A stretch of DNA of 64,000 nucleotides from the NCBI RefSeq assembly GCF_021560015.1, contig NZ_CP073588.1:2418001-2482000 (forward strand). Reading direction: 5' to 3'. Below are positions 44,593 through 56,909 of this stretch, piece after piece. Below the pieces are notes generated by a model that saw only the letters and a list, made by a program, of their open reading frames with translations, made no database searches and was not told the origin of the DNA. Each line of letters opens with the position of its first letter. Within the stretch, counting starts at the first letter, position 1. Both the position numbers and the translations under genes were made by a program. Origin of the DNA: Shewanella vesiculosa (GTDB taxonomy: Bacteria; Pseudomonadota; Gammaproteobacteria; Enterobacterales; Shewanellaceae).

Positions 44593-44976
44593 TTAAAATG
44601 CTTGGCAAAATATGCCAATCGATGCGCCAATCCCAACAAACCAAGTCAATGATCGCATGGTGCCATAATTCAATAAATACATCACATGGTAAACCAACCG
44701 CGCGACCACATGCACAATCGCTAATAACGCAACCATATCAGTCACATTATTAGTGATTAACGCCGTTAACACAGCAATACCAAAAATGATTAACGACTCA
44801 AACGCATTTTGATGCCCAGCAGCCGCTCGTGCACCATATCCTGTTAACTGAGCTTGCTGCGACCGCGGGTGGTTATTGTCATATTTGCCCAATTTAGCCA
44901 TTGCCATTGCTAACGGTACTTTTGCCACATATGGCAATAACATCGCAATCAATAAACATATCAGTATCGTCTGCAT
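44593..44976 (-). CDS. MAPEG family membrane protein
   Basis: This 127-aa protein has four hydrophobic segments and the MAPEG pattern: GARAAAGHQNAFESLIIFGIAVL (with the conserved E-N/F segment), and AIVHVVARLVYHVMYLLNYGTMRSLTWFVG. MAPEG proteins are trimeric membrane enzymes related to microsomal glutathione transferases. Bacterial members usually lack a known substrate. It is alone, bounded by the shared terminator. AAGGAC precedes the ATG. Confidence 0.85.
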   Translation of the reverse strand: MQTILICLLIAMLLPYVAKVPLAMAMAKLGKYDNNHPRSQQAQLTGYGARAAAGHQNAFESLIIFGIAVLTALITNNVTDMVALLAIVHVVARLVYHVMYLLNYGTMRSLTWFVGIGASIGIFCQAF

Positions 44977-45231: not shown

Positions 45232-46566
45232 TTAACTCTGTTGAGCAGGTAACCAGACTTTGACACTTAAGCCCCCTTCTGGGCGACTTTGCAGGCTAAT
45301 TCGGCCACCGTGTGCTTCAATGATTTCTCGGCATAAGGGTAAACCAATGCCAGTACCAGACTGCTTGGTAGAATAAAAGGGCAACAGTGCCTGCGACAAT
45401 ACTTCGCTAGACATCCCCGAACCTTGATCATTCACTTTTATCAATAAACCAGCAACTGGATGGGTAATATCTTCAAAAATCAGCGCAACACTATCGGCAT
45501 CCGCACCTGATTCATGGGCATTTTTAAGTAAGTTAATCAGTACTTGTTCAAGTTGAACCGCATCAAGCTTAATCGGTATTTGCGGCAGAGCCGATAATAC
45601 CTGAAACGGATATTGCTGCGCCAGCTGTTGGGTCATCTTAGACCAATCAATTAGCTGTTTTTGTGGTAAAGGTAACTTAGCAAACTGGGCGTAATGAGAA
45701 ATAAACTGACTTAAATGACTGGTGCGATTTTCAATAGTATCAAAAATCAGTTGCAGCTTAGTGTTGTCTAAATGTTGAGTTAAAAACCTACCTGAGTTAA
45801 CCATAGAAGCGATAGGAGCCACTGAATTATTGAGCTCATGGCTGATAATGCGGATCACCTTTTTCCACACGGCGACTTCTTGGCGATTAAGCTCTTTAGT
45901 GAGTTGTTTAAGTAAAATTAAATGATGTTGCTGATTATTTTGGGTAAAGCGACCGCGGGAAATATGCCAGGTTTCAACATCATTCTCATCGATACTATCG
46001 CCTGAGCTGCTGCCCATCGAAAACAGCCCTTCTTGCTCACTATTTAATGCCGTTTTAAGCGCTTCTGGCAATATCGCAATCAGTTCAGGTAACAACATAC
46101 CTTCAACTTTAACGCCATGATTGAACAAATGTCTTGCCGCGCCATTGGCATAAATAACTCGCTGTGAGTCATCAATTAATAACATCACATTTGGCGAGTT
46201 TTGAATCACTTTATCGAGCATTAACTCGCGCTGATAAATAAATTGTCGTTCGCTGCGCAGTTTTGCCGATGCTTGATTGTATAAACTCACCAAAGCATCA
46301 AGTTGCGGCTCACCATAAGGATGCAGCGACACACTAAAGTCGTTGTCTTTAAAGTTTAATAAGCCGATTTCCAACGCTTGCAGGCTGTCACTTAAGCGCT
46401 TGGTAAGCCACATACTGCAAAAGTAGCACACAGCCAACATTAGTAGCACAGCCAACCATAGCGAGTTATCACCTAATGTCAGCCACACTAAAGCCCCTGC
46501 CATTGCGGCCAAAAGGCAGCTTAACATGTTGCTTAACACGACTTTAGTGCGTAACGATAACATCAT
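45232..46566 (-). CDS. Sensor histidine kinase of the sigma-54 ABC module (PAS-HATPase)
   Basis: This 444-aa kinase has two N-terminal membrane segments (residues about 10-30 and 36-55), a HAMP-like linker, a PAS-like domain (IDDSQRVIYANGAARHLFNHGV), the phospho-acceptor His243 in IISHELNNSVAPI, and an HATPase with NLLKNAHESG (N box), DQGSGMSSEVL (G1) and SGTGIGLPL (G2). H-E-L-N-N is common to NtrB/NtrY-type kinases. Its ATG overlaps the response-regulator stop by 4 bp (ATGA), so the two are a coupled two-component pair. It would phosphorylate the sigma-54 activator encoded upstream. The short loop between its membrane helices suggests signal sensing in the membrane or inside the cell. The signal is unknown. 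Confidence 0.92.
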   Translation of the reverse strand: MMLSLRTKVVLSNMLSCLLAAMAGALVWLTLGDNSLWLAVLLMLAVCYFCSMWLTKRLSDSLQALEIGLLNFKDNDFSVSLHPYGEPQLDALVSLYNQASAKLRSERQFIYQRELMLDKVIQNSPNVMLLIDDSQRVIYANGAARHLFNHGVKVEGMLLPELIAILPEALKTALNSEQEGLFSMGSSSGDSIDENDVETWHISRGRFTQNNQQHHLILLKQLTKELNRQEVAVWKKVIRIISHELNNSVAPIASMVNSGRFLTQHLDNTKLQLIFDTIENRTSHLSQFISHYAQFAKLPLPQKQLIDWSKMTQQLAQQYPFQVLSALPQIPIKLDAVQLEQVLINLLKNAHESGADADSVALIFEDITHPVAGLLIKVNDQGSGMSSEVLSQALLPFYSTKQSGTGIGLPLCREIIEAHGGRISLQSRPEGGLSVKVWLPAQQS

Positions 46567-48002
46567 GGCTTAGTGACTCTAATCGCGTATTTTTCCATCC
46601 GCCGATACAGGGCTTGCCTGCTTAAGCCAAACGATTTAGCTACTCTGGCAATAACGCCATTATATTGGGTTAATGCAGCTTCTATCTGTTGTTTATCAGG
46701 CTCAAAAATAAGACCCGCACTGGCGTCATCTGACTCATTCTGCTCAAGAGCATCATTAACAAAATATTGATTTTTAATAGGTTCACTTGAATGATGTAGC
46801 CTTGAAACCGCAGCCACTTGAGTAGCCGTGTTCGGGTTCAAGCCAAAGTCGTGCAGAGTAAGCTGGGCAGATTTTGCCAGTAATACCGCTCGTTTACAGG
46901 CGTTTTCTAATTCGCGTACATTGCCTGACCAACAATGGTTAAGTAACGCCTGCTGGGTCGTTTTATCAAGACTAAAGTTAGTGCCAATAAAATGTTTCAC
47001 TAAGGGTAAAATATCATCTTGGCGTTGATGTAATGGTGGCACGCTCAGTTCGATCACATTTAAACGGTAAAACAAATCTTCACGAAATCGCCCATTGAGA
47101 ATGTCATCGGCTAAATCGGCGTTGGTGGCACTAATTACCCGTACATTGACTTTACGAGTTTGATGGCTGCCTAAACGTTCAAACTCACCCGTTTGCAGCA
47201 CTCGCAATAACTTCACTTGACCAGACAAAGGCAAATTGCCTATTTCATCTAAAAATAACGTGCCACCATCAGCCGCTTCAAAACGGCCCATACGAGTTTT
47301 ATTGGCGCCCGTAAAGGCGCCGGCTTCTGCGCCAAATAGCTCAGCCTCTAATAAATCTAGCGGCAAAGCGCCAATGTTGACCTTAATAAAAGGTTTATCT
47401 TTTAGTGGCGAATTAGCCTGTAAAATATCGGCGATTTTATCTTTACCCGCGCCATTTGGGCCAGTGATCATTACCGACACATCAGAACGAGCCACTTGTA
47501 ACGCCAAATCAACACAGCGCTGCATCGCGCCACTACCAAATACTAGCCCACATAAATCAGCACCATTAATAGCCGACATCCGCTCGCTGTGTATGCGACT
47601 TAATTGGCTATTTTGTTGTGATAATCGATAAATAGATAATAAGTTGCTAATGCTATTGAGCAGCTTGGCGTCATCCCAAGGTTTGCCCATGTAATCAGCC
47701 GCGCCGGCTTTAACCAGTTCAACAGCAGTTTCAAGTTGAGTCCAAGCGGTCATTAAAATAATCGGTAAATTAGGCTGTAATTTACGTAAACCATAAAACA
47801 ACTGTTTGCCCTCTTCACCCGAAGTGGTATCACGGCTAAAGTTCATGTCTTGGATCACCAAGCAGATCTCTTTATGAGTGACAATCTCAACTGCAGCTTC
47901 TGGCGTGTGACAAAAAATAGCCTGATAGCCATGCAGTTCAATCATCAGCGCAAGGGCTTGGCAAATGGCATGGTTGTCGTCAACAATTAAAATATTATCC
48001 AT
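46563..48002 (-). CDS. Sigma-54-dependent response regulator (NtrC family)
   Basis: This 479-aa protein has a receiver domain (phospho-acceptor Asp52, Thr85, Lys107), an AAA+ domain with Walker A GPNGAGKD (181-188), the sigma-54-contacting loop GAFTGA (228-233) and Walker B LFLDEIG (249-255), and a Fis-type HTH near the C-terminus (VIARVAKSFGLSRQALYRRMEKY). It would activate sigma-54 promoters by remodelling the closed complex. A near-perfect sigma-54 promoter with three palindromes stands upstream of the HlyD gene at the head of the same gene run, so this regulator probably drives its own cluster. It is 116 bp from the upstream permease gene and overlaps its kinase by 4 bp. Confidence 0.95.
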   Translation of the reverse strand: MDNILIVDDNHAICQALALMIELHGYQAIFCHTPEAAVEIVTHKEICLVIQDMNFSRDTTSGEEGKQLFYGLRKLQPNLPIILMTAWTQLETAVELVKAGAADYMGKPWDDAKLLNSISNLLSIYRLSQQNSQLSRIHSERMSAINGADLCGLVFGSGAMQRCVDLALQVARSDVSVMITGPNGAGKDKIADILQANSPLKDKPFIKVNIGALPLDLLEAELFGAEAGAFTGANKTRMGRFEAADGGTLFLDEIGNLPLSGQVKLLRVLQTGEFERLGSHQTRKVNVRVISATNADLADDILNGRFREDLFYRLNVIELSVPPLHQRQDDILPLVKHFIGTNFSLDKTTQQALLNHCWSGNVRELENACKRAVLLAKSAQLTLHDFGLNPNTATQVAAVSRLHHSSEPIKNQYFVNDALEQNESDDASAGLIFEPDKQQIEAALTQYNGVIARVAKSFGLSRQALYRRMEKYAIRVTKP

Positions 48003-48118
48003 TACTTTGATGTAATTCTCATTGGTTAAACTCTAAAACGCGATGTCGATTGAGCACCTTTGCTAGCCTAGCACGCTAGCGCAAAGCTAACTAGATTGCG
48101 AATAAAATCAGCAAGACT

Positions 48119-49327
48119 CTAGACACTGCGCGTCGCCATCGCCGGTGAAATATTGGCCGCTTTAGCCGCGGGGATAATAACCGCTAGCGTGGTAACTATC
48201 AGTAAGCCAACCACAGATGCTATCGGATAAACTACCGGCACCATTGGTAAGCTGTACAGTTTCATTAATTGCTGTCCCAATACAAGTGATAACATGCCGC
48301 CAATAACACCACCGACAATACAAATCAGATAGTTTTCAACCATAAAATATTCAATGATGTCACGCTTACGAGCTCCCAATGCACGGCGAGTGCCGATTTG
48401 TTTGGTGCGACGTTGAATATTAAACATCACCATACCCGTTAATCCTAGCGCAGTAATGAGTAGCAATAACACCACCATAATACTTAATACGGTCGCCATT
48501 AAACGGTGGTTACTGTAAGTCAGGTTTCTGATTTCACTCAGAGTTTGAAAGTTATCAAAAACCCGATTGGGATTTTCAGCATGGAGGGCTTTTCGGATAG
48601 CGTTTTCTAACGCGGGGATGTGTTCAGGTAATGCCCGTACCATATAAGATTTATTACTGCTGTTGCCGCCAAAATCAATATTTTGGATCACGCTGTATTC
48701 AAAGTTCTTGTTATCAACCCAAGCCCCTTGCAGTTTATCAACCACGCCAATAATGGTAACACTTTGCTCTCCTTGATACATGGTTTTACCCAGCGGCGAT
48801 TCATCCCCCCAAAAGGCTTTAGCTAGAGGTTGCGACACTAGCGCCAGCATGCCGCTATCACTCAAGCTGGTATTAATTTCATCTGCCGTAAAGTTGCGTC
48901 CGGCAATTAACTTAGCGCCCATCACATTGAGCAAATGCTCGTTACCCAAGTAAAATGCAAAACCTGGAGTGCTTTTGGCCGTATCTTCATTTGGGCTGTC
49001 AACATAGCGATCCATCCAACCACTGTCACTTAAGGGCAACATATTGCTAGAACTGGCATCGATAACATTAGGAAGTGAACGTAAAATCTGTTGATCTACC
49101 TCATTTTGCTTAAGATTATCAACGGCTGGGTCGAAGTTATAAACACTGAATGTGAGTATTTGATCTTCTGCATAGCCCGACTCACGCTGCATTAACGACA
49201 AACGCTCGTTAATAATAAAGCTAGCATTGGCGACAATCGCAACAGACAAAATGATTTGTAATAGCAATAAAACCGGCGCGCTTTTACTGCGCAGTAAACT
49301 GGATAAAATCGGTTTGATATGTAGCAT
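48119..49327 (-). CDS. MacB/FtsX-like ABC transporter permease, second
   Basis: This 402-aa protein is built as one N-terminal helix, a large periplasmic domain (SYAEDQILTF-type; ending near residue 270) and three C-terminal helices (MATVLSIMVVLLLLITALGLTGMV..., ENYLICIVGGVIGGMLSLVLGQ..., VVGLLIVTTLAVIIPAAKAANISPAMATRSV). FtsX-like hallmarks are RRTKQIGTRRALGARKRDII. Works as one half of a heterodimeric MacB-type ABC transporter that uses mechanical energy on substrates or adaptor rather than a classical channel. It follows the first permease by 24 bp. The pair shares an operon with the ATPase and the HlyD-like protein. Confidence 0.92.
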   Translation of the reverse strand: MLHIKPILSSLLRSKSAPVLLLLQIILSVAIVANASFIINERLSLMQRESGYAEDQILTFSVYNFDPAVDNLKQNEVDQQILRSLPNVIDASSSNMLPLSDSGWMDRYVDSPNEDTAKSTPGFAFYLGNEHLLNVMGAKLIAGRNFTADEINTSLSDSGMLALVSQPLAKAFWGDESPLGKTMYQGEQSVTIIGVVDKLQGAWVDNKNFEYSVIQNIDFGGNSSNKSYMVRALPEHIPALENAIRKALHAENPNRVFDNFQTLSEIRNLTYSNHRLMATVLSIMVVLLLLITALGLTGMVMFNIQRRTKQIGTRRALGARKRDIIEYFMVENYLICIVGGVIGGMLSLVLGQQLMKLYSLPMVPVVYPIASVVGLLIVTTLAVIIPAAKAANISPAMATRSV

Positions 49328-49351
49328 GGTGATGTCCTTGTTTATAATCCG

Positions 49352-50665
49352 TTATTGGGCTTTTAAATACACGCTGGGTTTAGTGCGGCACACTACCCAT
49401 GCAGGATAAACCCCGGCCAATATCGCCGTTGAAATAGCGATAATTGGGGTGATAAACCACATACTGAGATCAAGCCCTGTGACACTTTGGTCCACTGAAA
49501 AATAGCTGTGTAGCGCCGTTAACGAACCCCATGCCCATAACAACCCGACTACCCCACCAATAAAGCCAATCATGCCCACTTCGACCATGTACTGGCTAAA
49601 AATCTGTCCACGGCTAGCGCCAATAGCACGACGGACCCCCACCTCAGGCGCACGCTTTAAAAATTTAGTCAGCAATAAACCGAGAATATTGACTAAGCAA
49701 ACGCTTAAAAACAGTAAGCTTAAACCGACTAATATTTTGTTATCTTTTGGCACCACTTCATTATCTTCAAGCCATTTGCTGATATCGCTAATTTGCACTG
49801 ATTCGCCAGCGGTTTTAGCCGTATCAGTAAAGCGGCCAATGGCTCTTTGTTGCTCGACATAACGGATTAACCACGCTAAATAACTTTGTTTTTGCTCATC
49901 AGTTTTGAGTTCGGTCCAAAATTGAATCCACACTTTTTCTGACGTTAATCGATCCTTGTAAGTGAGCATGGGTTCAAATCTCCAACCACTGGTATTGCCC
50001 CACACATCAAACTCTTCTTGTTCGGTTAACGAAAAAGGAATAAATATTTCTTCAGCATCATTAAATGCGCCATTAGTTGGATCGTAATATTTAGGCTGTG
50101 GATTCCAATCTTCAATCACCCCCACAATCTGATAAGGCTTACGATCTAAAAACACCGTTTTACCCACACTGTTTTTGCCTTCAAAAAAGCGTAAATTTAA
50201 CTTTTGGCTAATGACAACTTGATAGGCTGGGCGTAAATCAACGCTGGCATCCCAGTAACTGCCATATAAAAATGGTACCGAGAAAATCCTAAAAAAGTCT
50301 CTGTCGGTAACTCGCACACTTTGCAATACTGGTTCAATCTTTGGATTATCAGACTGCAAAGCTAACCCAGTACGATAACTGGCAGCTTTAAGGCTTAACT
50401 CATCGTTATTACGCAAATTCATCGCATCGATATAAGTAATATTGGCAATAAACTCATCCCACGTATCCAATCCTTGGCTCCACAACTGTACCGAGTTAAT
50501 CACTTCACTGCGATCACCTGCCGGATTATAAGACATGGTTTTATAGACATTTAACGTGGTAATGGTAATACCAATCCCAATCGAGATGGCTAACACCATT
50601 AACATCGATAACATCGGCGTTTTACGTATGCTTCGCCATGCTAAATCGCAATAGTAAAAAAACAT
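49352..50665 (-). CDS. MacB/FtsX-like ABC transporter permease, first
   Basis: This 437-aa protein has the same architecture: N-terminal helix (TPMLSMLMVLAISIGIGITI), periplasmic MacB_PCD domain (residues about 45-300, QVVISQKLNLRFFEGKNSVGKTVFLDRKPYQIVGVIEDW), and a three-helix FtsX domain with KRAPEVGVRRAIGASRGQIFSQYMVEV. The two permeases differ substantially, so the transporter is a heterodimer. It lies 18 bp from the ATPase gene. Such HlyD-ATPase-permease-permease sets export peptides, or take part in membrane stress and antimicrobial-peptide resistance; no particular substrate is indicated here. Confidence 0.92.
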   Translation of the reverse strand: MFFYYCDLAWRSIRKTPMLSMLMVLAISIGIGITITTLNVYKTMSYNPAGDRSEVINSVQLWSQGLDTWDEFIANITYIDAMNLRNNDELSLKAASYRTGLALQSDNPKIEPVLQSVRVTDRDFFRIFSVPFLYGSYWDASVDLRPAYQVVISQKLNLRFFEGKNSVGKTVFLDRKPYQIVGVIEDWNPQPKYYDPTNGAFNDAEEIFIPFSLTEQEEFDVWGNTSGWRFEPMLTYKDRLTSEKVWIQFWTELKTDEQKQSYLAWLIRYVEQQRAIGRFTDTAKTAGESVQISDISKWLEDNEVVPKDNKILVGLSLLFLSVCLVNILGLLLTKFLKRAPEVGVRRAIGASRGQIFSQYMVEVGMIGFIGGVVGLLWAWGSLTALHSYFSVDQSVTGLDLSMWFITPIIAISTAILAGVYPAWVVCRTKPSVYLKAQ

Positions 50666-50683
50666 AATATTCCCCTTATGCGA

Positions 50684-51382
50684 TTATCGCGTGCCAGTAG
50701 CAGCTTGTTGATACATGGAAAAGTCACATACTTGGCCATCGACAATTTGAATATTGCGCTGCGCGCGACGTGCGAGTTCGGAGTCGTGAGTCACCATAAT
50801 AATGGTGGTGCCTTGTTGATTAATATTCTCAAGCAGCTCCATCACCTGACGCGCCATTAAGCTGTCTAAATTACCGGTAGGTTCATCGGCTAATAAAAAT
50901 CGAGGTTCGCCCGCTAATGCTCGCGCAATCGCTACGCGTTGCTGTTGTCCACCCGATAATTGTGTCGGTAAGTGCTTCATTCGCGCACCTAAACCCACTT
51001 GCTCTAATGCTGACTCGACTCGACGCTTACGCTCACTGGCATTCATACCGCGATAGCGTAATGGTACTTCGACGTTTTCGGCTAAATTGAGATCAGGAAT
51101 TAAATTAAACCCCTGAAATATAAAGCCAATTTTTTCATTGCGCACTTTGGCACTTTTGTTATCGCTTAAATTCGATACATTGACGCCATCAAGACTGTAT
51201 TGCCCAGATGAAAACCCTTCAAGTAAACCGGCAATATTCAAAAAAGTGGTTTTACCTGAGCCCGATGGGCCCGTCACTGCCACAAACTCGCCTTCATTCA
51301 CTTCCAGATTAAAGTCACGTAGCGCATGGGTTTCAACTAAATCGGTTTTGAATACTTTACTGATGTTTTTCATGGATAACAT
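50684..51382 (-). CDS. ABC transporter ATPase (MacB/LolD type)
   Basis: This 232-aa ATPase has Walker A GPSGSGKT, the Q-loop region [12 protein letters not shown], signature LSGGQQQR, Walker [14 protein letters not shown] and switch His in MVTHD. It is of the LolD/MacB group that energises FtsX-like permeases. TTGGTAACCAAGGAAGCC before the ATG provides AAGGA. It precedes the two permeases by 18 bp, so all three are cotranscribed. The upstream 190 bp contain only the space after the small ORF. Confidence 0.95.
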
Positions 51383-51572
51383 AATGGCTTCCTTGGTTAA
51401 TTCGGTTGTCGCATCCCAGCGCTTATGGCTGATAATGTGAATCTTACTAATCTGAATACTGTTGTTTTAATGCTTTTTTTAATGCTATGAGTGTTGTTAT
51501 TATCGGTTTAGGTGATATGTCGTGGTCGCTGATTTGATTAGTGCTGTCAGCGACAGTACCCGCTAGCCGAGG

Positions 51573-51794
51573 CTAAAACAGCAGCTTAATGTTGACCATG
51601 TCGCTAATATCAATATGCAAGCGAACGGCCGGATTGACCTCCGTTAGCCGAGTTGAAACCTGGCTGCTCATGTCAATTAACTGCAAACTCACCGATAACC
51701 AATCGGTATGATTATCAATGCGATAACTCACTGCTATTGCGAGAACAAATAAAGCAGCGAGTGCGATAAGCTGTCTACGTTGAATAAAAGTCAT
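51573..51794 (-). CDS. Small (73-aa) membrane or exported protein in the ABC operon
   Basis: The ORF begins with a basic N-terminus and one hydrophobic segment (MTFIQRRQLIALAALFVLAIAVSYRI), then an amphipathic polar tail (residues 25-73). TAAGGACATTCA gives a good ribosome-binding site. It lies 66 bp after the HlyD gene and 190 bp before the ATPase, on the same strand. I recognise no family. It could be an accessory subunit, a regulator of the kinase or, less likely, a substrate or its leader. That it is translated is inferred from the RBS and position. Confidence 0.55.
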   Translation of the reverse strand: MTFIQRRQLIALAALFVLAIAVSYRIDNHTDWLSVSLQLIDMSSQVSTRLTEVNPAVRLHIDISDMVNIKLLF

Positions 51795-51860
51795 TGAATG
51801 TCCTTACTCAGTTGAGTGTTTCGTTATTTGCTTAAGTCATTAACTTAGTTGCAGACTTGC

Positions 51861-53120
51861 TTAGCGGATCTGAATATTAGGTTCATTTTTAAAGCTTTCG
51901 GTACCTGATATCACCCAAACATCTCCTTCGTCACCGCCTTCAATCACTTCAACTTGGCTCATACTGCGTGCCCCCAGTTTGACGGTTTTCTTATGAGCAA
52001 CCGCATCATTCACTTGATAGGCCACTTCACCGCCAAGATTGAGAAAATCACCGCGTTTTACTATCAACACATTGGGTCTGTTTTCCAGTAATACTCGGGC
52101 AGATAAACGCTGGTTTTGACGTAATGATAAGGTGTTGCTGTCTGCAAAACGCACTCGGGCAGTCACTTCGCGGTTACGCACCTCAGGTGAAATTGACGAC
52201 AATTGGCCAACCACATTAACGCTACCAAAACTCAACTCAACATCCATTCCCAAGCCCAACTCATCGGCATAAGATTCTGGCACCGCAAGCTCTGCTTCAA
52301 AGGCGGTTAAGTCGACCACTGTTAGCATTGGCTGACTCGGACCGATACGGGCTTTTTGCTCCACCAGCCAGTTACCAATAATGCCGCTAACCGGAGCAAT
52401 AATATTCAGAGCATTGGCTTGACGAGTTAACTCTCTCACCACTAAATCTTGACGTTGTACTTCAAGAGTACGGTTTTTAATTTCAAAACTCAGGGTATCG
52501 CGCATTAACTCAACTTCTTGCTGGGCATGCTTATGCAGTAATTTAGCTTTGTGTAAATCATCTTTGCTTTTTTCAAAATCGATTTTGCTGATCAAACTCG
52601 ACTCAATCAATTGATCACCACGACGGCTTTCACGATCCGCAGCTTCTAAATCCACTGTCGCCATGTCTAAAATCTGACTGACACGAAGTTGCTCACGGCG
52701 GGCGTCTAACTTGGCACGTTCTAAACTGCCCTGCATCCCTTCAAGCATCGACTGCTGTTGTTGTAATTCACTTTGCAAACGTGGGCTCTCAATTTTAGCG
52801 ACTACCTGTCCTTGCTCAACTTCATCACCTGGTTGGCTCAGTAAAGTCACCACACCTTCTTCGGTGCTATATAAAATCGGCGCATTAGCAGCCACTATTT
52901 TACCGGTAGTGGCTATATCACGAACTAAGGTTCCACGAGTGATCGTTGCTAAGCGTAATTCAGCGCCATCAACTGAACGCACCGAACTGTCATGGCCCAA
53001 ACTCGCCCACACCAATGCACTCATCAATATTGCACCGCCACCTATAATTAAGGGTAAGCGCAACTTACGACCTAACTTAGGCGCAATAACAGTATCTTGG
53101 CTACTTGTGTCTTTAATCAT
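51861..53120 (-). CDS. HlyD/MacA-like periplasmic adaptor subunit
   Basis: This 419-aa protein has one N-terminal membrane helix (LPLIIGGGAILMSALVWASL), a beta-barrel/lipoyl section (IATTGKIVAANAPILYSTEEGVVTLLSQPGDEVEQGQVVAKIES), a long coiled-coil hairpin (residues about 110-230, Leu/Gln/Glu/Arg rich), and a second lipoyl half (LNIIAPVSGIIGNWLVEQKARIGPSQPMLTVVDL). It is the first gene behind the sigma-54 promoter and would connect the ABC permeases to an outer-membrane channel such as TolC, which is not in this cluster. AAGGACCTGAG stands before the ATG. Confidence 0.93.
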   Translation of the reverse strand: MIKDTSSQDTVIAPKLGRKLRLPLIIGGGAILMSALVWASLGHDSSVRSVDGAELRLATITRGTLVRDIATTGKIVAANAPILYSTEEGVVTLLSQPGDEVEQGQVVAKIESPRLQSELQQQQSMLEGMQGSLERAKLDARREQLRVSQILDMATVDLEAADRESRRGDQLIESSLISKIDFEKSKDDLHKAKLLHKHAQQEVELMRDTLSFEIKNRTLEVQRQDLVVRELTRQANALNIIAPVSGIIGNWLVEQKARIGPSQPMLTVVDLTAFEAELAVPESYADELGLGMDVELSFGSVNVVGQLSSISPEVRNREVTARVRFADSNTLSLRQNQRLSARVLLENRPNVLIVKRGDFLNLGGEVAYQVNDAVAHKKTVKLGARSMSQVEVIEGGDEGDVWVISGTESFKNEPNIQIR

Positions 53121-53178
53121 CTCAGGTCCTTAGGTACGCACAAACCGCACCCACAACTTCACATTTATACCAAGATAA

Positions 53179-53194
53179 AGCACAAGCCATGCCA
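53179..53194 (-). promoter_or_regulatory. Sigma-54 (-24/-12) promoter of the HlyD-ABC-two-component operon
   Basis: On the minus strand the sequence reads TGGCATGGCTTGTGCT. It has GG and GC exactly 10 bases apart and agrees with the TGGCAYGRNNNTTGCW consensus at all but one of the specified positions. The transcription start would be near 53168, about 49 bases before the HlyD start codon. The last genes of the operon encode a sigma-54 activator and its kinase. Confidence 0.85.
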
Positions 53195-53259
53195 ATAGCT
53201 ATTTATTGTTATTTTTCATAATGATAAGTATTTAAAAAGATAACCGAACACTCTAAAAG

Positions 53260-53316
53260 TGTCCGCGGACAGATGTATAAACTGTCCGGTCATTGAGAAA
53301 GTGTCCGAGCGGACAC
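53260..53316. promoter_or_regulatory. Three palindromic sites upstream of the sigma-54 promoter (likely enhancer)
   Basis: Site 1 is TGTCCGCGGACA (53260-53271, perfect). Site 2 is TGTCCGGTCA (53283-53292, one mismatch). Site 3 is GTGTCCGAGCGGACAC (53301-53316). The centres lie 22 and 21 bp apart, two helical turns, and about 97-140 bp before the predicted start, as expected for an NtrC-family activator. Binding by the regulator encoded in this operon is an inference from symmetry and location. Confidence 0.75.
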
Positions 53317-53358
53317 TTTGTTTTATGTATAGCGGGGGATTATCTTATTAACAGTTTT

Positions 53359-53396
53359 CTCGTCGTCCCGGTAGTGCTTTTGAGCCGGGATCCAGG
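53359..53396. repeat. REP-like repeat, left copy
   Basis: CTCGTCGTCCCGGTAGTGC ... GAGCCGGGATCCAGG is an inverted copy of the element at 58326-58362. CCCGG...CCGGG arms can form a hairpin. Elements of this kind are widespread intergenic repeats; here the pair brackets the island. Confidence 0.7.
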
Positions 53397-53424
53397 TGTT
53401 TGTTTTGCTTTGTACTTTTGTACT

Positions 53425-53745
53425 TTTGTACTTATGGCCTGCGGCCACTAACGTCGTGGCGCTTCGCCCACACCAGACCAAGAGGAAACTAACGGCTGTT
53501 CCCTCTTGGAACTCCCAGCCGCCCCGCAACATTTTCAAACAGCGAAAAGGTCGCCATGGGGTTAGCTTTAGCTTTGACCTGCATTTGTAGACCGCCTCGG
53601 CCTTATTCGAAAATGCTAACGCTTCCGATGGGGCGTCCCTTCCCCTCGAAAGCTAGCTGGCCGTCCATGGCCAGCTCACGTCATTTTCTTCAACGGCCTC
53701 AAGTTCAGAGTTGAATTTGCAGATTTTCAAGTAAGGCTAACTCGT
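53425..53745 (-). repeat. 300-bp island repeat, copy A (inverted)
   Basis: Reverse complement of the units at 57021-57374 and 57375-57792. Shared landmarks include CCATGGCGACCTTTTCGC, GTTGCGGGGCGGCTGGGAG, CTCTTGGTCTGGTGTGGGC, GAAGCGTTAGCATTTTCG and TTCAACTCTGAACTTGAGG. Any short frames inside it are not credible genes. It is preceded by three TACTTTTG tandem copies (about 53404-53428). Confidence 0.85.
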
Positions 53746-53908
53746 TGTTGGAAAAAAAACAATTTAGAGCTAATACACAAAATTCTCTTATTCATATTAG
53801 GATATATAGGGCTAAATTCTAAAATAGTTGAAGTCAGGATTTGAGTCAATGGCCAAACTAACTAGGCCACTACAAACGTCGTAATTTGATTTATTAAGCT
53901 GTGAATTC

Positions 53909-54640
53909 TCACAACTGACTCGTGAATTTATCATGAAGCTTATGCTCTGGCAGGCAACTGATAACATCATTTTTACTAATTAAAAGAACTCTTGTGTTGT
54001 ACTTGTCTTCAACCCCAACTCGAAATATCTCTGAGTTAGACGAAAATTTTCCAGCAAAGATAGCGATCTTAGTTGGCGGATTTTCTAAGCTACTAATGGT
54101 ACGTATAATTTTGTCTATTTCTCGATCGCTTACTTGCCCATTTTTTACTTGGGCATATATTGTTGTTTCCCCCTTACGTGCAACAACATCGACTTTTTCA
54201 TGATCTAATTCTGAGCCAGCCCTAGAAGAATCAAAGCCTAAATACTTAAAGTAATCTACTACAATATATTCAGTGAGCTTTCCGGATAAACTCTTCACTT
54301 TCCCTTTTAGTTTTTGTAGGTCGCCTTTCGTAGCTGGAGCTTCAGACTCTTCACTAGGTTTTCCCAGCGAATGGAATACTGTGTCACCTCTCGCGATTAC
54401 CAGACGAAGATCGTCATCCAGCCCAATCGGTAAAAGCTCTTCACTTATTTGGTTTTGAATAGAAGATAACTCTTTAAGTCCTATATCCATTTTGTCGTAG
54501 AATTCACTTTCGAGCAGCAACATACCTCTAATAAGAACACCAAAATGCAATGATAAATGGCCTACATATTCGTCACTAAAAATTACTGTATATTCCTCAC
54601 TTGAAGCCGTACGTGATTCTCTTAAATATTTTAGGTTCAT
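53909..54640 (-). CDS. Mrr-like restriction endonuclease-fold protein
   Basis: This 243-aa protein has a helical N-terminal part and a C-terminal PD-(D/E)xK nuclease domain: KLTEYIVVDYFKYLGFDSSRAGSELDHEKVDVVARKGETTIYAQVKNGQ. In it D (VDVVA) and Q-V-K form the D...QxK active site of Mrr/type IV-like nucleases, with E in the preceding helix. The C-terminus includes NPPTKIAIFAGKFSS and TRVLLISKNDV. Mrr-type enzymes cut modified or foreign DNA. It has no adjacent methyltransferase. It lies in the repeat-bounded island between copy A and the group II intron, suggesting horizontal acquisition. The N-terminal part is of unknown family. The substrate and true role are unproven. Confidence 0.75.
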   Translation of the reverse strand: MNLKYLRESRTASSEEYTVIFSDEYVGHLSLHFGVLIRGMLLLESEFYDKMDIGLKELSSIQNQISEELLPIGLDDDLRLVIARGDTVFHSLGKPSEESEAPATKGDLQKLKGKVKSLSGKLTEYIVVDYFKYLGFDSSRAGSELDHEKVDVVARKGETTIYAQVKNGQVSDREIDKIIRTISSLENPPTKIAIFAGKFSSNSEIFRVGVEDKYNTRVLLISKNDVISCLPEHKLHDKFTSQL

Positions 54641-55435
54641 CTATTACCTTTGCTTTTCGGTTAGGAGCTTAACGTCTTAGTTATTTATGCTTTATGCTTC
54701 GAGCTGTTTGCAAGGAATAAATGTGATGCACATTTATTGAACTTAAGCTCCAAGACTCACTTTAACGAAAGTAATCTGTAAGTGCCATTGTGGATTAGTT
54801 AAAGTAGGTCAATTGGCTGGCTATCTGTCTTTGTTGCTAATCGCCTTCAACTCACAATGGGGCGTGCGACGTGAGGTCGTATGAAGCGCTGTTCACCGCT
54901 TTTGAGTGAACCATCTGTATCACCAGATGAACCTAGGGCTCTGAATAAAGTAGCGAGCCTGACAATGTAACGAAGATTGGTCATGGACTAATTGGGATCT
55001 AAATCGTGAGAGGACGATCCTCCTGATAACCACAAATTGGGTGAGTGCTAGGTAGTCAGTATGATGAACATAAGTGAATCCGCGCAAGGTGCGTTATGTG
55101 ATGAAACAGCGGAAGTGGTTAATACGCTGTAGCCAAAAGGCATGAGAGTTGGAAAGAGATTGCCCCATGCTCTTTCGTGATCAATACGCTCTCCGCACTA
55201 TAGCGGGCATCTAACCTGACATTGCGCGACATACGGAACACGGTAAGCCTATATCGCTCCCTTTGGGAAAGCTGATTTGGCCGATAGTGATGTAGGTATA
55301 GGAGGTTGGAAAAAGCAAAGGCTGCATTGTAACGATGCAGATACAGACTTGTGTCTGGTCACGAAAGTGAGCCCACTTCCGACTGGTCTCCCGTTGCAAG
55401 ATAATGTGAAGAACTTTATTCAAGGAGAAACGCAA

Positions 55436-56909
55436 ATGATGATTTCAACAGAGATTAGTGCCTCTCCTGACAGCGAACAATGGCAGTCCATAGACTGGAA
55501 ATCTGTTGAACCGCCTGTATTAAAGCTTCAGATGCGTATTGCAAAGGCAACACGAGAAGGGAAACACGGTAAAGCGAAAGCGTTGCAGTGGATACTGACT
55601 CACTCGCGTTCAGCAAAACTTCTTGCTGTTAAGCGTGTATCACAAAATAAAGGCAGTAAAACGCCTGGAATAGGTGGTGTTATCTGGAATACAGATACCC
55701 GCCGCATGAAAGCAGTAAATCAATTGAGCAGGAAGGCATATCAAGCCAAACCACTCAAGCGTATCTATATCCCCAAAAAGAATGGCAAACTCAGACCTCT
55801 TGGTATCCCATGCATGATAGACAGAGCACAACAAGCGCTCCACCTTCTTGCATTAGAGCCTATATCGGAGACGCTTGCCGACCCTAACAGCTATGGATTT
55901 AGACCAAATCGTAGCACTGCTGACGCAGTCGATCAGTGCTTCAAATGTTTGGCTCTAAAGAAATCAGCACAATGGGTTCTTGAGGGAGATATCAAATCCT
56001 GCTTCGACAAAATCGGGCATCAATGGCTAATAGATAACATCGCCATCGATAAACGTATGCTGGAACAATGGTTAAAGTCTGGTTTTATGGACAAAGGGCT
56101 GTTTTATCGTACTGATGAGGGCACGCCACAAGGGGGGGTTATATCCCCAACCTTGATGCTAATGACTCTTGCTGGACTTGAGCAGCGCATAAAGTCTACA
56201 GCACTCAAAAAGGGTGCTAGAGCCAACTTTATTGGATACGCCGACGATTTCGTCGTCACCTGCGCTTCAAAGGAAGTGCTCGAGAACGATATCAAACCGT
56301 TGATCGCTGATTTCTTAGCGGAAAGAGGCTTAACACTCTCCGAAGAGAAAACGCATATTACCCACATCAGCAATGGTTTTGACTTCTTAGGTTCAATCAT
56401 AGGAAGTACAAAAAGGAAAATTGCTCATTAAACCGAGTAAATCCAACACGCTGTTGTTCTTGAGTAACCTGCGCGAACTCATCAAAAAGCACGCAACCAT
56501 CCCTGTTAACGACCTTATCAAACTGATAAATCCGAAACTAAGGGGGTGGGCGAATTATTATCGTCATTGTGTTGCTAAACAAGTATTCGGGTATGTTGGG
56601 CACAAACTATTCTATTCGTTATGGCACTGGGCAGTAAGGCGTCACCCAACAAAGTCTAAGACTTGGGTAGCCCTTAAATACTTCATCAACCGAAAAGGCC
56701 AATGGCAATTTCACGGTTGGCAGAAGGTCAAGGATATGGATTGCCAATTCAATCTATTCCAAATAGCCAAAGTGCCTATTGAGAGGCATGTGAAAATTCG
56801 AAGTGCGGCTATACCATTCGATCCTCAATACCAAGAATACTTGGCTAGGAGAAAATCGAAAAGGCAAGCTCGTAACGCTTGGAATGAACCTGCTCTCACT
56901 GCTTTATAA
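55436..56909 (+). pseudogene. ltrA: Group II intron reverse transcriptase/maturase, frameshifted
   Basis: The first frame from ATG 55436 (with CAAGGAGAAACGC before it) contains RT domains including PLGIPCMIDRAQQALHLLALEP, YGFRPNRSTADAVDQCF, GTPQGGVISPTLM and the catalytic GYADDFVV. After GFDFLGS the frame degenerates. Restoring one T (GGTTTC) and one A (A6 before GGAAAA, around 56414) yields FNHRKYKKGKLLIKPSK and enters the second frame, which holds the maturase (X) domain LRGWANYYRH and ends at 56909. The result is 491 aa. The C-terminal HNH endonuclease domain is absent: it stops after FDPQYQEYLARRKSKRQ. The two 1-bp deletions are inferred from family patterns. Confidence 0.85.

Follow-up and report, generated by a model that had tools for sequence, protein, structure and literature searches.

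Can the induction of a bacterial exporter be written entirely into its own operon? This question is raised by a locus of Shewanella vesiculosa (genome of 4.78 Mb), which lies on the minus strand of a 64,000-nucleotide stretch of contig NZ_CP073588.1, referred to here in its full length as the window. Seven genes encode there a MacAB-like exporter, a small membrane protein, an NtrC-type response regulator, and a histidine kinase; a -24/-12 (sigma-54) promoter and palindromic operators precede the first gene, hlyD. We consider that the locus is probably a self-contained, self-activating sigma-54 export circuit (a probability of roughly 0.87), and that activation of the operon by its own regulator is very probable. 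Sigma-54 RNA polymerase requires an NtrC-type activator; the gene of the activator associated with these operators sits inside the operon, which makes autogenous activation the economical reading. Transcription would be expected to depend on both the regulator and RpoN, and one sigma-54 gene (rpoN) is present in the genome. The regulatory elements are the following:

53302..53315, minus strand: distal operator TGTCCGCTCGGACA, the outer edge of the block conserved in 12 clade members
53283..53292, minus strand: middle, imperfect operator (TGACCGGACA), whose CGGACA half-site is found again in relatives
53260..53271, minus strand: proximal operator TGTCCGCGGACA, centered 73 bp from the GG of -24
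53179..53195, minus strand: -24/-12 (sigma-54) promoter TTGGCATGGCTTGTGCT, kept upstream of orthologues; the start predicted from the position of the box is at about 53168

The promoter has the GG at -24 and the GC at -12 of a sigma-54 promoter, 10 bases apart (GG-N10-GC). The first-pass annotation, made from the letters of the window, had reported a near-perfect -24/-12 box, TGGCATGGCTTGTGCT, at 53179-53194 on the minus strand; the comparison confirmed it and found it in a single copy in the genome. The three TGTCC-type palindromes described in the same annotation are likewise real, the middle one being imperfect, with centers spaced by 21 and 22 bp. TGTCCG is rare in the window (6 occurrences found, 16.3 expected), and 5 of the 6 fall inside the 56 bp of the operators; the perfect operator TGTCCGCGGACA has one copy in its own genome, at the operon. 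In an ungapped comparison of 12 close relatives, the conserved block starts at the distal palindrome, from which identity across 20 bp is 0.95 inward versus 0.47 outward, and across 60 bp 0.81 versus 0.35.

Conservation of the box and palindromes upstream of orthologues, which had been set beforehand as the test of this reading, was found almost throughout where the regulator gene is present. The comparison covered 93 loci, that is, stretches of more than 7 kb with an hlyD match, drawn from relatives, from the order and class, and from genome contigs; identical hlyD genes were counted once and close relatives remain, and the counts over the 93 loci are not independent trials. A regulator gene is present in the stretch at 75 loci and absent from it at 18. 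At least two half-sites of the TGTCCG or TGTTCG types occur in the 500 bp upstream of hlyD at 74 of the 75 regulator-bearing loci and at none of the 18 regulator-less ones, and a -24/-12 box (score of at least 12 within 250 bp upstream of hlyD) at 73/75 and 0/18, respectively. L128, which has no upstream DNA in its stretch, was scored from L190, and L153 was assigned to the regulator-bearing group because L189 reveals the regulator farther downstream. Among 30 clear hlyD orthologue loci (L002-L031, our own included), the best box-like match scores at least 12.2 in 29; at the exception, L025, the promoter lies farther out: in a longer stretch from there (L185), the box is at -359 and the operator at -433. 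Once the criteria were fixed, 21 loci were added and tallied separately; they comprise places omitted earlier and, from those Shewanella places with homologues of which only a part had been read at length, loci previously read short, with L191. All 20 regulator-bearing loci of this set have both the box (20/20) and the half-sites (20/20), and the remaining one, L284, has neither, with 2.2 kb of downstream DNA, which is too short to judge.

On a tree of 91 loci (L125 and L168 omitted), the regulator gene is missing from L154, from L119, and from a single clade of 14 loci, a distribution that takes three changes; these absences would be losses. Additionally, four genomes carry both a regulator-less and a regulator-bearing copy (the pairs L118/L131 in G085, L125/L126 in G272, L127/L121 in G356, and L154/L151 in G734), and the operators are found solely at the regulator-bearing copy. 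The 12-mer TGTCCGCGGACA occurs at 27 places in 26 of 60 genomes, our own included, and its reversed-pattern control at 11 places in 9 genomes. Twenty-six of the 27 places are upstream of an hlyD orthologue or, in G048, of its homologue; the last, in G007, stands before another gene having its own box-like sequence.

The operator sequence was also found to follow the recognition helix of the regulator. TGTCCG outnumbers TGTTCG at all 69 loci with an SRQ helix, and TGTTCG/CGAACA replaces TGTCCG/CGGACA at all four loci with an SRS helix (L123, L128/L190, L130, and L140); at 2 of the 75 regulator-bearing loci the helix was not found. In the added set, both SRS regulators (L280 and L282) have TGTTCG over TGTCCG by 3 to 1, and 15 of 16 SRQ regulators favor TGTCCG, with no helix found in two further cases. 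Helix and operator thus change together, without a one-letter code: a one-residue code was considered and rejected as too simple, since other SRS-helix modules carry other operators. Distant paralogous exporter-regulator-kinase modules were observed at L231, L232, and L277, each with a box-like sequence and different palindromes; in L232, an SRS helix accompanies a CGTTCG..CGAACG operator. The exporter-regulator-kinase set may be a cassette of general use whose operators have diversified.

Distances from the operator center to the GG of -24 form main classes at about 62 bp (21 sites), 73 (29), 83.5 (10), 106.5 (5), and 116 (13), with single sites at 52, 97, 110.5, 130, and 136 bp; the list omits L128 and L153. 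For the nearest-operator classes (52, 62, 73, 84, 87, and 106.5 bp), the best period within the range examined is 11.1 bp with R of 0.82, which was equaled by 18 of 5000 random sets; a test on unmerged distances (0/20000) overstates the phasing, since orthologues are repeats of one another. Operator-promoter spacing tends to keep step with the DNA helix.

Several observations weigh against the self-activating circuit. The box by itself is common, with four window sites at no more than one mismatch to TGGCAYNNNNNTTGCW; it is unremarkable alone, and its conservation is what counts. L137 has a single TGTCCG half-site, and L126 (11.8) and L185 (10.7 within 250 bp; 13.2 at -359) stay below the box threshold. 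Fourteen of the 18 regulator-less loci belong to one clade, several deep nodes of the tree are weakly supported, and in G040, the only regulator-less genome searched directly, no regulator was found elsewhere at E 1e-120. No more than 6 of 74 loci have an IHF consensus upstream of the box, for which reason a conserved IHF site was rejected. Phasing is weaker when all ten distance classes are taken (period 11.0, R 0.56, 78/5000 random sets), of which those at 97, 110.5, 130, and 136 bp hold one member each. Seven of 74 regulators show no GA.TG match. L281, with an SRQ helix, has two TGTCCG and two TGTTCG; the first four SRS loci cluster in a single clade, so that helix and operator may have changed there only once; and distant SRS modules have other operators, TCCCG..CGGGA in L231 and a GTCCCA-type one in L277. 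Finally, a half-site-plus-box pattern gave 68 matches across 60 genomes versus 28 for its control, so any single match may be due to chance, and part of the matches lie before other genes; the regulator may thus not serve this operon exclusively in every genome.

In the genome of S. vesiculosa itself (G000), one form of this pattern, with a gap of 35-65, matches once, at the operon (control, 0). TGTCC..GGACA is found at 9 places, versus 18 for the reversed control, and the two with full TGTCCG/CGGACA arms are both at the operon, which is the sole place found in this genome with both promoter and operator elements. Two candidate targets were rejected there. One is the orthologue (G000:C1:2716271-2716876) of a sigma-54-type lipoprotein gene, where a box-like sequence is present and CGGACA is absent. 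The other is an HlyD paralogue (G000:C1:3287996), which is followed by a response regulator and a kinase of OmpR/EnvZ-like appearance, as judged by eye, and for which no strong box or palindrome came to light. Twelve places were hand-picked from the 68 pattern matches and the 12-mer places by recurrence, an hlyD-like neighbor, or an extended half-site, and are not an unbiased sample. A lipoprotein-like gene stands behind a sigma-54-type box and CGGACA in L223, L225, L227, and L228, and in L224 with one half-site; among its orthologues, a box-like sequence is present in most of 28 loci and CGGACA close upstream in 3/28, so another activator is probably in control there. CGGACA and a box-like sequence were also seen, in G007 and G015, before the gene for a 205-residue secreted protein (L234), its relative (L226), and a 138-residue open reading frame (ORF) (L229).

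The operon itself consists of seven minus-strand ORFs in the same direction, located where the first-pass annotation had placed them, and Pfam agrees with the gene types it had proposed for all except the small ORF:

51861..53120, minus strand: hlyD, HlyD/MacA-type periplasmic adaptor, 419 amino acids (PF13437, PF16576; TIGR01730 above cut-off)
51573..51794, minus strand: small single-helix membrane protein, 73 amino acids, of a family seen almost only in Shewanella
50684..51382, minus strand: ABC ATPase of MacB/LolD/DarD type, 232 amino acids (Pfam, NCBIfam)
49352..50665, minus strand: FtsX/MacB_PCD permease 1, 437 amino acids (Pfam, NCBIfam, solved-structure matches)
48119..49327, minus strand: FtsX/MacB_PCD permease 2, 402 amino acids (Pfam, NCBIfam)
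46563..48002, minus strand: NtrC-type response regulator with a receiver (QDMNF), an AAA+ domain with GAFTGA, and the Fis-type helix SRQALYRR
45232..46566, minus strand: histidine kinase with two membrane helices and a short loop, PAS and HATPase domains, and a 4-bp overlap with the regulator gene

The order from 5' to 3' is adaptor, small ORF, ATPase, two half permeases, regulator, and kinase, with gaps of 66, 190, 18, 24, 116, and -4 bp. The spacings were described earlier as short, which hardly applies to those of 190 and 116 bp. The seven genes would be read as one transcript. In the proposed mechanism, the kinase would phosphorylate the regulator, which would bind the TGTCCG palindromes, about two helical turns apart, and use its AAA+ domain to open sigma-54 RNA polymerase at the promoter upstream of hlyD. 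The levels of exporter, kinase, and regulator would then rise together, giving the loop a positive sign. The adaptor, the ATPase, and the two half permeases, which as neighbors of half size may form a heterodimer, would move the substrate outward from the periplasm, probably via a TolC-type channel; no gene for such an outer-membrane channel is present among the seven ORFs of the operon, to which this search was confined.

The regulator has the features of a Group I enhancer-binding protein: a receiver with a phospho-acceptor, an AAA+ domain, a Fis-type helix-turn-helix, and a GAFTGA loop. The sigma-54 contact motif GA[F/Y]TG[A/L/I] is present in 67/74 regulators, that of the window included. 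NtrC, GlrR, ZraR, and other response-regulator enhancer-binding proteins share the same receiver, AAA+, and Fis-type domains; in contrast to them, the regulator described here has its own operator, TGTCCG(N)CGGACA, whereas the GlrR motif is TGTC-N10-GACA. Its scores do not reach the cut-off of any of the 25 NCBIfam models shown, including NtrC (344.9 of 558.6 bits), AtoC, ZraR, and GlrR.

A MacA-like adaptor, an ATPase, and MacB_PCD/FtsX permeases mark the exporter as tripartite and MacAB-type. The operon shares these components with MacAB-TolC and differs from MacB in having a separate ATPase and two different half permeases; the MacB equivalog cut-off of 966 bits is not reached by the ATPase (224.6) or the permeases (66.2 and 48.9). 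In a comparison with solved structures that was based on sequence and covered permease 1, the top matches were MacB chains (E 8.5e-12). The nearest named relatives of permease 1 are from Shewanella, including S. frigidimarina. The darobactin exporter DarBCD is another likeness: the best NCBIfam match of the ATPase is DarD, and the adaptor and permease 2 weakly resemble DarC and DarB, with scores below the respective cut-offs (DarD 271.8/375, DarC 76.3/450, DarB 44/700). In L153 and L189 (G534), additional permease genes were observed between the ATPase and regulator genes of the exporter operon.

What would the kinase sense? Across 74 kinases, 1-19 residues separate the two N-terminal segments of highest hydrophobicity, and ahead of the HAMP-like anchor lie a median of 73 and at most 109 residues, with starts set by alignment; this short loop and short N-terminal region leave little space for a periplasmic sensor domain. 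The short-loop two-helix layout is characteristic of intramembrane-sensing kinases, a group in which some members read an exporter. In the Bce modules of Firmicutes, the kinase reads the exporter and the regulator is of the OmpR family. The operon shares with the Bce/Gra modules an FtsX-type exporter, a response regulator, and a short-loop two-helix kinase lacking a periplasmic domain, as judged by hydrophobicity only; in contrast to them, it has an NtrC-type rather than an OmpR-family regulator, that is, a sigma-54 activator with enhancer sites, as well as a periplasmic adaptor and a PAS domain in the kinase. In one report, a loop of the permease VraG is described as interacting with GraS in peptide sensing (PMC7951975), and in another, GraRS is placed in the family of intramembrane-sensing kinases (PMC10581149).

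The same self-activating circuit could therefore have a particular input, with the kinase reading the working exporter (Bce-like flux sensing), so that a challenge with substrate would lead to self-induction and, in Shewanella, the small membrane protein may help the coupling. We hold this version to be plausible, short of probable. Apart from the cramped N-terminus and the GraS/VraG parallel, it is favored by the regulator-less loci, where a kinase match of at least 80 bits was found in 0/18 stretches (L125 has a weak, 27% match). It is weakened by the PAS domain, which could sense a signal inside the cell, by 3 of the 74 kinases that show only one clear helix with the chosen start (71 show two), and by the small protein, which was not seen outside Shewanella loci and cannot be a general coupler. 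A broader analogy, more tentative still and on balance unlikely, would make the locus a Gram-negative sigma-54 counterpart of the Bce modules, in which the exporter serves as sensor for a sensorless kinase, the operon-locked enhancer circuit gives a steep, self-amplifying response, and the Shewanella small-protein family is added as an accessory or coupling subunit.

A different sign of the loop seems improbable. Under negative or mixed autoregulation, the regulator would also limit its own promoter through a half-site downstream of the start; a TGTCCG/CGGACA half-site does lie 34-75 bp downstream of the -24 GG in 22 of 73 loci, for example L172-L183, but it is absent from the window and its 11 close relatives. 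Least credible, and very improbable, is that the palindromes serve another regulator or terminate upstream transcription while the regulator of the operon acts elsewhere: two terminator-like stems do overlap the palindromes (in a pattern scan giving 8 stems versus 9.0 expected by chance), and in G006, where the regulator has no match at E 1e-120, a CGGACA half-site persists at the sigma-54-type promoter of another gene, but the operators come and go with the regulator gene and follow its recognition helix in sequence, their distances to -24 tend to be phased, and TGTCCGCGGACA has no loop for a hairpin. The terminator version was rejected because the palindromes match the presence of the regulator gene.

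The small membrane protein deserves attention beyond its possible part in coupling. Of the 34 loci considered with an hlyD-ATPase gap of at least 150 bp, all but L184 (33 loci) encode a short ORF that has a single hydrophobic stretch. A [DNS]W motif follows this stretch in 31 of the 33, the exceptions being L141 (40 residues) and L167 (36 residues). At the remaining loci, where the gap is 9-129 bp except at L122, L153, and L168 (all three omitted from this set), such an ORF was not seen. Twelve of the ORFs have 73 codons; in these, 30 first, 21 second, and 52 third codon positions vary, a pattern that fits a protein-coding gene. A profile search, in which the best 7993 candidates were scored, yielded at least 112 family proteins (P0001-P0112), and those with a named organism are from Shewanella, except for one gammaproteobacterium entry and one Vibrio. 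For the ORF of the window, no match in Pfam or NCBIfam was found at E 0.001. The positive-inside rule would place the tail of the protein in the periplasm.

Regarding the surroundings of the operon, a MAPEG gene (window 44593-44976) also adjoins it in several close relatives from Shewanella, and this suggests that the locus was inherited vertically. On the upstream side (53320-56909), an Mrr-type nuclease gene, unmatched in the other loci compared, and a reverse-transcriptase gene are present, and this neighborhood looks young.

In passages of a 2025 survey (PMC12316311), sigma-54 is reported to be enriched for COG0577 permeases in gammaproteobacteria, which is termed first evidence; these passages name no activator, operator, or autoregulation, and MacB and HlyD do not appear in the main text. 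No description of the operon or the operator was found among the literature matches listed, a scope without bioRxiv preprints and most subscription journals, and the 12-mer TGTCCGCGGACA gave a single match there, a paper on the CD164 gene.

The circuit appears to be of an ordinary type, with unusually strong comparative support. An exporter family whose sigma-54 control was otherwise found, in the parts of the literature covered, only in a genome-wide survey here gains a specific operator, promoter, and regulator, and a conserved, unnamed family of small membrane proteins is brought to notice. With the paired change of helix and operator, a system is at hand in which the mutual insulation of such circuits can be studied. 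Moreover, the locus makes it testable whether MacB-type exporters can sense for their own regulation in Gram-negative bacteria.

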